DNA of 64,000 nucleotides from Nostoc sp. B(2019). GTDB lineage: Bacteria > Cyanobacteriota > Cyanobacteriia > Cyanobacteriales > Nostocaceae. Location of the stretch: positions 186,001 to 250,000 of the forward strand of contig NZ_WVID01000011.1 in NCBI RefSeq assembly GCF_010091925.1, given 5' to 3'. Of this stretch, positions 9,871-12,204 are shown in pieces; positions within the stretch are counted from its first letter, which is position 1, and each line of letters opens with the position of its first letter. The notes under the pieces were generated by a model. The model did not search any database, had not been told where the DNA came from, and saw nothing but the letters and a program-made list of their open reading frames with translations. A program made the position numbers and the translations under genes.

Positions 9871-10173
9871 TCACAAAAGCTCTAGTGCTTCTAGCAATGT
9901 TGAACTCAAAATCTGTTTCAATCGGTCATTTGACGTATTTCCACACGTCAACCAGTTAACTTGTGGCGGTGCTCCAAAAGGATTAACTAAGTCAGCAAAG
10001 TCACTGTCTTTAGTCATAAAGATGACTCCTCTGGCTCTCGCAGCCTCGAAAATCTCCGGATCTTCGGCATCTCTCAGCCCAACATCACGCAAAGCTAATG
10101 CCGTTATGCCAAATGTGATGGTGATCCAAGTAGCAATTGCAGGTGATAGATGTGCATCTAACCAGATCGTCAT
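9871..10173 (-). CDS. DUF5615 PIN-like toxin
   Basis: A 100-residue protein with the DUF5615 signature: MTIWLDAHLSPAIA at the N-terminus (first acidic residue D6), ALRDVGLRDAEDPEIFEAA in the middle and MTKDSDFADL near residue 53 with two further acidic residues. The family has a PIN-like nuclease fold and occurs with DUF433 antitoxins. The ATG overlaps the stop of the upstream DUF433 frame as ATGA, the classic translational coupling of such pairs. The toxin looks intact even though its partner is interrupted, which raises the question of how it is kept silent. Confidence 0.85.
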   Translation of the reverse strand: MTIWLDAHLSPAIATWITITFGITALALRDVGLRDAEDPEIFEAARARGVIFMTKDSDFADLVNPFGAPPQVNWLTCGNTSNDRLKQILSSTLLEALELL

Positions 10174-10610
10174 GCAATCAAAATCGGATGATTGAGCTTA
10201 CGTGAAGCGTACATAAGTGCTGCTTTAAGATCATCCGCTTCAAGATCGGGCATTTCTTCTAGTATTTGTTCGGCACTCAGTCCAGCTGCAAACAAGTCGA
10301 GTACATCTGATACCCGAATTCTCATGCCCCGGATACAGGCAGGGCTGATTCATTCGATCTCTTAGGGATTTTGTCAAGAGTATGAGTCAGAAATTTGCTT
10401 GAGTGGAAAAAAGAAAAACTACCACCTCAACCAGCAAATTTAAGTGCGTTCACCATTTTCTTGCCCAATCAGATTTTTTAGTCACCTGTTTTTTTTGCTT
10501 GAAACGCTTGTAAATCAGCGCCTTTTAGGGAATGAAACAGCCCTGCGGATACAGGGACGACCACCACATTGTTTGGGATTAACTGTAATTCTTCCAAGTA
10601 AGTCTGACAT
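10170..10610 (-). pseudogene. DUF433 antitoxin gene split by a small mobile element
   Basis: The gene starts at 10610 with MSDLLGRITVNPKQCGG and a good AGGAG ribosome-binding site at 10620-10624. It reads to the conserved RPCIR, where it is broken by the 206-bp element at 10340-10545. It resumes as CIRGMRIRVSDVLDL and ends at 10170. Deleting the element and one copy of the 10-bp duplication restores a continuous DUF433 protein of about 74 residues. As it stands, a 51-residue fragment could start at the internal ATG at 10325, keeping the helical C-terminal part but losing the N-terminus. DUF433 proteins are winged-helix-like antitoxins paired with DUF5615 toxins, and the toxin gene follows with a 4-nt overlap. 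Confidence 0.85.
10340..10545. mobile_element. 206-bp MITE-like element with terminal inverted repeats and 10-bp target duplication
   Basis: The ends are CAGGGCTGATTCATTC at 10340-10355 and, inverted, GAATGAAACAGCCCTG at 10530-10545. These are 16-bp terminal inverted repeats with one mismatch. They are flanked by identical CGGATACAGG direct repeats at 10330-10339 and 10546-10555. The interior holds no long reading frame, so the element is non-autonomous. The 10-bp duplication fits the 10-13 bp typical of several IS4-family transposases; that parentage is an inference. It interrupts a DUF433 antitoxin gene. Confidence 0.88.
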
Positions 10611-10671
10611 ACGGTTTAACTCCTAGATGAATGCTTAACCGAGTATATGTAAGGTGGACAATCCTGACCTC

Positions 10672-10688
10672 ACTTCTTACTAAGAAGT
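10672..10688. repeat. Short hairpin downstream of the reverse transcriptase gene
   Basis: ACTTCTTA (10672-10679) and TAAGAAGT (10681-10688) form an 8-bp perfect inverted repeat around one base. It lies 27 bp after the reverse transcriptase stop and upstream of the DUF433 start on the minus strand. It has no clear T run, so it may be an RNA-processing or operator site rather than a strong terminator. Confidence 0.45.
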
Positions 10689-10714
10689 TGAGCTTAGATT
10701 AACGCCTAGTATTA

Positions 10715-12055
10715 CTAAGTCAATCTTAAAGTTAATTCATCAATACGTTTGATAATTTCTGTCTCTGGAAATCCTGATTTTCGATACCTTTTGTAAAATT
10801 TAAGCAATGTGTAATGAAATGAACTAAATCTAACTTTTGGTATTTGCTCATCTAAAGTATTAAAAATATCTGTTCGATCTGGTAAGCACTGAGCAACTTT
10901 ATTGAGCAACCAATAATCCTGAGCTATTAAAAACTTAGGTTCGTAAAGTGCAGACATCAATCTATACTTTAAATGAGGCTTGACTACAGAAAGACCAACG
11001 CTAACTATCCGACGCAATACAGAGTCATGACGAAAGTAAACTCTGCCATCGAGCCATTTAAAATAAAGTTCTATTCCCTGATTAACTTTATCTACATCTT
11101 TAGGATCATCCAACAATTCAAAAATCTCGAAGGCCCAGTACTTATAGAATTCATCGCGTGAATAGAAAGAACTAACTTTGCTAGAATTAATATTTAGATT
11201 AATTTTGAATAGCTCCTTTGAAGCCTCAAAAAGAATTTCGTAGGCGACTTCTTCACTGGGAGTCATAATAATTTGGTCATCAGAATACCTGAGATAGCAA
11301 GCACCGTACTTGTTACATTCAGCTTTCATAAAAGCGTCATAATCCTGCAAATAGAAGTTAGCTAAAATACGCGAACAGTCACCTACTTCGTCTTGAGGTA
11401 TTCCTACAGATTTTTGTGAATATCTTTCAAATCGGCGATTCCAGTTTCTAAGAAAGTGGAAAAGCAAATCAATTACAAAAGCATCTTTTGAATTAGTAAA
11501 TAGTCTAATTTTATCTTCTAAAAGGCTGAGATTGATTGTGTCGTAAAAGTTAGCAATGTCAAATTTGAGGAAAAAGCAATGATTTGGGTTCTTGCTGTAA
11601 AGATAGGCTCGTTTCTGAAACTCCTTCCAATTTTGTGACCATTTAAACGGATTGTAACTATTTTGGGGTATTGGCGATGGAGGTGTTAGTTCCTCTAATT
11701 CCTCTTCTTCCCTTTTCCGTATTGGATTACCTAAACTCCAACCTCCAAATGTTCCCTCAACCCGATTAACCGCAATGGTCTGTTCCAACTGCTTTATGCA
11801 AAAATAATAAGTACAGTTTTCGCGTGAATCAAAAACTGGCACTATTCTCGAAACGCAATTATGTTTATCAAAAACTACATACTCACGTGGAAGCCCAGGA
11901 TAATAATGCCTGTGAACAATGTCATCATGTAGCTTTTCAAGCGTCTCTATTTTCTTAGGTTTCTTGTTTGAAGGATATGGAACTAATGTCTCATCAATGA
12001 TTTTTTTCCAGAAGCTGCCAGCGAAGAGATTAAGAAATTCAGTCTTACTAATCAT
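10715..12055 (-). CDS. Lone reverse transcriptase, unknown-group/abortive-infection (DRT-like) type
   Basis: A 446-residue protein with a reverse transcriptase palm. LKFDIANFYDTI (about residues 159-170) has the first catalytic Asp, GIPQDEVGDCSRILANFYL (about 217-235) matches the GxPQ...S..LA motif of Abi/unknown-group enzymes, and RYSDDQII (about 255-262) is the YxDD box. About 190 residues follow the palm, mostly predicted helical, as in class 1 unknown-group/Abi enzymes. There is no group II intron maturase, Cas1 or integrase domain, and the LGNLTSQ-like motif of diversity-generating enzymes is absent. Known relatives protect bacteria against phage. An alternative GTG start lies at 12082; the ATG at 12055 gives the N-terminus MISKTEFLNLF. 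It sits next to a toxin-antitoxin pair. Confidence 0.8.
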   Translation of the reverse strand: MISKTEFLNLFAGSFWKKIIDETLVPYPSNKKPKKIETLEKLHDDIVHRHYYPGLPREYVVFDKHNCVSRIVPVFDSRENCTYYFCIKQLEQTIAVNRVEGTFGGWSLGNPIRKREEEELEELTPPSPIPQNSYNPFKWSQNWKEFQKRAYLYSKNPNHCFFLKFDIANFYDTINLSLLEDKIRLFTNSKDAFVIDLLFHFLRNWNRRFERYSQKSVGIPQDEVGDCSRILANFYLQDYDAFMKAECNKYGACYLRYSDDQIIMTPSEEVAYEILFEASKELFKINLNINSSKVSSFYSRDEFYKYWAFEIFELLDDPKDVDKVNQGIELYFKWLDGRVYFRHDSVLRRIVSVGLSVVKPHLKYRLMSALYEPKFLIAQDYWLLNKVAQCLPDRTDIFNTLDEQIPKVRFSSFHYTLLKFYKRYRKSGFPETEIIKRIDELTLRLT

Positions 12056-12204
12056 GTAGTTTTGATAAACTAAGCCTCTCACTCACAGCCTAAGATTGAA
12101 TCAGAGTGTCTTGATTATTTGGCTAGAACCAATATTAATCTCGATCTCGCAATAAGCAACCTTAATGAACTGCTTTAACCAATAATCTAAACACCTGACT
12201 ACTT

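Follow-up and report, generated by a model that had tools for sequence, protein, structure and literature searches.

Does an intact toxin gene stand beside an antitoxin gene that a mobile element has broken, and if so, how is such a state tolerated? The question was raised by one locus in a 64,000-nt stretch of DNA (the window) from Nostoc sp. B(2019), for which an initial annotation, made from the sequence alone, had described a MITE-like element that splits a DUF433 antitoxin gene and leaves its DUF5615 toxin intact. The features on which the argument rests are as follows.

9871..10173, minus strand: DUF5615 (PIN-like) toxin gene, truncated, 100 aa (PF18480, E 7.8e-21)
10170..10339, minus strand: DUF433 C-terminal piece (PF04255 positions 17-56, E 2.8e-14)
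10330..10339, no strand: target site duplication CGGATACAGG, copy 1 (single copy in the related genome G002)
10340..10545, no strand: non-autonomous MITE with ISAs1-like ends, 206 bp (genome copies; family-profile match to ISAs1 ends)
10340..10355, plus strand: terminal inverted repeat, arm 1, 16 bp
10530..10545, minus strand: terminal inverted repeat, arm 2, one mismatch (matches the transposase-start end of the IS)
10546..10555, no strand: target site duplication CGGATACAGG, copy 2
10546..10610, minus strand: DUF433 N-terminal piece (PF04255 positions 1-15, E 2.2e-4)

A MITE splits the DUF433 gene

The described anatomy was confirmed on inspection. Both the inverted repeats and the 10-bp direct repeat are present, and the reading frames that touch the 206-bp element are all of 60 aa or less and only short chance frames, in agreement with the claimed absence of coding capacity. 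Short, non-coding and bordered by 16-bp inverted repeats with one mismatch, the element has the make-up of a MITE. The split of the DUF433 gene was also borne out, as the two pieces match PF04255 at positions 1-15 and 17-56. The N-terminal piece scored 21.4 bits, just under the curated cut-off of 23.6 bits, and its frame continues into the element and stops soon after (31 aa in total). In the C-terminal piece, an in-frame ATG at 10325 would give a 51-aa DUF433 fragment covering positions 17-56. Because the element and one duplication together amount to 216 bp, the DUF433 reading frame is kept across the insertion. A solved structure, 2ga1, was matched by DUF433 (E 3.5e-4).

The region at 10150-10760 was scanned for regulatory signals. 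No promoter-like site was found, with 1.3 expected; an outward promoter inside the element, considered after a TTGACA-like hexamer had been seen by eye, was therefore rejected. The same region holds two terminator-like sites on the minus strand (0.5 expected), one of which lies at 10556-10541 (-), where the duplication meets the inverted repeat, on the strand of the antitoxin gene.

The MITE has been active recently

The initial annotation had named, as counter-evidence, a lack of other copies together with the lack of an empty site in any related genome; neither applies. The MITE sequence was found 15 times in the 7.43-Mb genome (G000): ten of these are full-length and identical, an eleventh full copy carries a single mismatch, a twelfth stands at 78%, and the other three are pieces at contig ends. 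The window copy differs from the nine other identical copies at 0 of 206 positions. Duplications of 10-12 bp flank 10 of the 11 near-identical full copies, with lengths of 10 bp in eight, 12 bp in one and 11 bp in one (L011, read by eye from the flanks), and none in the eleventh (L003). The eight 10-bp target sites tend to have C-rich left and G-rich right borders, to which the DUF433 site conforms. L003 (G000:C98:188955-189160) is identical to the window MITE, and its flanks resemble the halves of a CCCCCTTAAAAAGG-like palindrome, perhaps as a result of later recombination or an unusual insertion.

We also searched 100 genomes, the own genome included, and obtained a match in 25, many of them to the terminal 23-56 bases only; copy counts per relative are lower bounds, as at most 8-9 candidates were scored in each genome. 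G019, which is placed in another genus, carries at least eight full copies at 98-99%, and the two that were read show 3 mismatches in 206. This suggests that the MITE has spread horizontally, since the region that we take to be ftsX matches between G019 and the own genome at only 85%. In the same-genus genome G002 (ftsX 91%), one 51-bp piece at 88% was present among the candidates scored. Moreover, Nostoc foliaceum FACHB-393 has the exact 30-base end within a 207-bp copy flanked by an 11-bp duplication, and one Nostoc plasmid record holds a partial copy (43% of the element at 91%). A mobile vehicle was sought among viral contigs, from which the exact 20-base end pattern was absent.

G002 also supplied the empty site. 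There, the two flanks of the element are contiguous around a single copy of the target, within an uninterrupted DUF433 frame of 74 aa. All 519 nt of the left piece aligned (94%), as did 101 of the 205 nt of the right piece (95%), and in a longer comparison of the window with G002 the two alignments overlapped by exactly the 10 duplicated bases. A multi-copy insertion with an empty site in a relative is far beyond chance. Thus, the identical copies, the 10-12 bp duplications and the uninterrupted G002 gene establish the 206-bp element as a recently active MITE, and the recent insertion claimed in the initial annotation stands. Together with a likely source IS (see below), the filled site, the empty site and the many identical copies make this a clean case of recent MITE activity.

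The adjoining toxin gene is itself damaged

The claim that the toxin was left intact did not survive. Adjacent DUF433 and DUF5615 genes are found in the expected order at the window locus, and neither is complete. DUF5615 matches occurred in 43 of 60 genomes. Among 20 related loci that were read (L113-L132), 18 give a protein of 110-117 aa, compared with 100 aa in the window; of the remaining two, L120 is interrupted at 65, and L132 has an internal stop and gives 109 aa from an incomplete start. The C-terminal tail that is absent from the window toxin is kept in 19 of the 20, and an in-frame remnant of it is still readable after the early end of the window gene. In a model of the G002 orthologue (mean pLDDT 86.6 from 9 sequences, 73 in the last block), the residues missing from the window toxin include the last predicted strand, E106-109.

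The window toxin was further compared within an alignment of 13 close sequences, from which L120, L131 and L132 were left out. It has four private residues, a total that is not high (1-10 in the other close relatives); three of the four, however, at 65, 73 and 87, fall at otherwise invariant columns, one of the three being found also in more distant relatives. By the same count, L125 has six private residues at otherwise invariant columns and the remaining 11 relatives 0-1 each. Values of dN/dS were not decisive (window-G002 0.041/0.141; G002-L117 0.104/0.336), and no match was found among the solved structures compared with the toxin. Acidic residues of the kind expected in a PIN-like site remain in the window protein. 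From the lost tail and the odd residues at three conserved columns, we infer that the truncated DUF5615 toxin is inactive. The apparent paradox is thereby removed, for the damage extends to the toxin as well as to its antitoxin. The combination had been called unexpected on the premise of an intact toxin; this premise fails, and a rescuing antitoxin is not required.

The toxin was most likely damaged before the insertion

Which of the two genes decayed first? Substitutions were polarised with three outgroups, whose agreement was required. In the 339-nt toxin region, nine changes fell on the window branch and four on that of G002, with eight ambiguous; the 170-nt antitoxin piece had one change on the window branch, two on that of G002 and three ambiguous. 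Had all nine toxin changes followed the insertion, a neutral stretch of 206 bases should by our arithmetic have gathered about 5.5 of its own, and the MITE shows none, although this ordering uses few substitutions, with eight ambiguous, and assumes no gene conversion among MITE copies. The unmutated MITE may in this way serve as a rough clock for the order of decay of a chromosomal toxin-antitoxin pair. Set against it, the nine window-branch changes in the toxin indicate that the pair most likely decayed toxin-first, an order in which no hidden antitoxin would be needed.

The state of 25 related loci (L113-L137) was classed by our own reading. Both DUF433 and DUF5615 frames are full in 17; in five (L120, L132, L133, L134 and L137), the toxin is broken and the antitoxin is full or almost so. 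As for the others, L125 (G018) has a DUF5615 frame of full length, and no DUF433 was found within the locus; L135 has a toxin tail only, and L136 is ambiguous.

The reverse order, with the MITE insertion coming first and the decay of the toxin following upon loss of the antitoxin, appears unlikely. It finds a parallel in L125, where a toxin without an antitoxin has its six private residues at invariant columns, as would be expected of decay after antitoxin loss; yet the roughly 5.5 changes expected in the neutral MITE sequence are not there, and in the commoner broken state among the relatives (5 of 25) it is the toxin that is broken, beside an antitoxin that is full or nearly so.

We regard as improbable that the toxin retains its activity and that the 51-aa DUF433 fragment, or a DUF433 protein encoded elsewhere in the genome, restrains it. 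Partners of both kinds could be supplied: the ATG at 10325 opens the fragment, and of the 18 DUF433 matches in the genome, the one in the window among them, at least three others adjoin a DUF5615 match by coordinates; the single window-branch change in the 170-nt antitoxin piece and the retained acidic residues would also fit. Against this, the toxin is missing its tail, including the last predicted strand, and carries unusual residues at three columns that are invariant among close relatives, the 51-aa fragment lacks the conserved N-terminal part of DUF433, and the scan of 10150-10760 gave no promoter-like site and two minus-strand terminator-like sites, one of them at the element junction. 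Another of the genome's DUF433 genes (L188/L194, G000:C98:80273-80444) is likewise represented by two neighbouring matches, each in a different frame.

A bolder version, to which we give very little credence, makes the 51-aa remnant a working regulator created by the MITE that would bind its own truncated partner or other DUF5615-type toxins; if so, the insertion would have rewired the module instead of killing it.

The MITE most likely derives from an ISAs1-family IS

In relatives, the same ends (CAGGGCTG...) flank full ISs, of which five, of 1159-1206 bp, were read. A family profile built from 20 MITE sequences, divergent members of 173-230 bp among them, matched both ends of the full ISs in collinear order in all five, over 58-82 bp on the left (27-38 bits) and 115-199 bp on the right (41-50 bits). 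The opposite orientation, which measures the end repeats alone, gave 6-11 bits, and the best reversed-sequence control had an E of 0.87. Taken singly, the interior of the window MITE gave a less clear result than the family profile, with a modest likeness to single ISs and 4-65 of 200 shuffles reaching the score on the left and 0-7 of 200 on the right. The transposase of one of the five, L087, the one covered by the NCBIfam comparison, matched NF033564 (ISAs1 family) in two frames (E 2.7e-35 and 1.5e-42); in Pfam, it matched DDE_Tnp_1_assoc (PF13808) and DDE_Tnp_1 (PF01609). Taken together, the profile matches beyond the end repeats and the L087 transposase make an ISAs1-family IS, rather than the IS4 family invoked in the initial annotation, the most likely source of the MITE. 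The two share their ends and are similar in subterminal sequence on both sides; they also share duplications of 10-11 bp in two of the five full ISs and at contigs C60 and C82; they differ in that the MITE, at 206 bp, has no transposase. Duplications in the ISAs1 family are 8-10 bp long; among the five full ISs, exact ones were found in two (11 and 10 bp) and none in three.

The own genome may hold a helper. An IS of this kind is cut by the ends of contigs C60 and C82: the start of the transposase lies on one side and its last codons on the other, CCCTATCGGG stands on both, and the middle lies outside the assembly. A protein search of this one assembly with a piece of the L087 transposase returned no ISAs1 transposase of this group. 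A helper IS in the genome, perhaps complete, is plausible, and so is mobilisation of the MITE in trans. At 0-1 mismatches, the 16-bp end was found in the MITE copies and their pieces, at the ends of the IS on C60 and C82, and at a lone site on C15.

IS4 was tried as the source family and rejected: in NCBIfam, L087 matched NF033564 only, and its Pfam matches were PF13808 and PF01609 (E up to 0.01). That an IS4-type transposase moves the element hardly merits belief, for although duplications of 10-12 bp are compatible with it and the genome has 15 DDE_Tnp_1 (PF01609) matches, an ISAs1-family transposase is encoded by the one IS tested among those that have the same ends and resemble the MITE in subterminal sequence, and the 16-bp end is shared by the MITEs, the C60/C82 IS ends and the C15 site.

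We therefore return to ISAs1 as the source and propose the following course of events. Internal deletion of an ISAs1-family IS would have produced the 206-bp MITE, which would keep about 60-80 bp of the left end of the IS and take the rest from its right end. The MITE would then have been inserted in trans by an ISAs1 transposase; at the target, a CCC...GGG-like site, 10 bp were duplicated and the DUF433 gene was split. The adjoining DUF5615 toxin gene had most likely been damaged beforehand, so that the loss of the antitoxin would have cost little. As a whole, this explanation (an ISAs1-derived MITE, insertion in trans into the DUF433 gene, a toxin most likely damaged earlier) is in our judgement probable.

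In the ISAs1 elements of relatives (L147-L176; L085, L086, L087, L106 and L111 as well), a run of eight A (TGYCAAAAAAAAC) divides the transposase into two frames. Across 30 loci, the run was readable by pattern in 23, with A8 in 22 and A7 in one; the loci reach down to 58-60% protein identity, and some of them repeat the five full ISs. This arrangement suggests programmed -1 frameshifting or transcriptional slippage. DDE_Tnp_1 transposases made by frameshifting have been described (PMC3711429), and Nostoc ISs with A8-A10 runs are likewise on record (PMC1088944).

Relation to known systems

MITEs are familiar in cyanobacteria. Nezha (Zhou et al. 2008) is reportedly, by the title, an active MITE in cyanobacteria, and we take it to belong to a different family from the window MITE. 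Cyanobacterial MITEs are treated in a review (PMC10969869). Anabaena sp. 90 has multi-copy MITEs of 77-541 bp, 15 of them in disrupted genes, and for these type II elements no IS whose inverted repeats match was identified (PMC3542288). The elements of that strain and of the window are alike in being short, multi-copy and gene-disrupting; they differ in that the window MITE has a likely source IS. As for the disrupted pair, VapBC10 (ssr2962/slr1767) of Synechocystis PCC 6803 combines a DUF433 (COG2442) antitoxin with a PIN toxin in one functional operon (PMC3834315). The window locus likewise pairs a DUF433 gene with a PIN-like toxin gene; both genes work in Synechocystis, whereas both are damaged in the window. 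In the open-licence literature, no paper on DUF433 and DUF5615 together was found, nor was the 15-base end string; an earlier description of the MITE family elsewhere is possible. With gene-disrupting cyanobacterial MITEs and DUF433-PIN pairs both already known, the window element is ordinary mobile-DNA biology.

A neighbouring reverse transcriptase

The split DUF433 gene is adjoined by a reverse transcriptase of 455 aa at 10715-12082 (-), which matches the PADLOC model RT_UG13b (E 7.6e-156). It is absent from the corresponding G002 stretch, and four other same-genus genomes gave only one weak match, at 27%. On these grounds, the gene is likely to be an acquired, defence-type reverse transcriptase.
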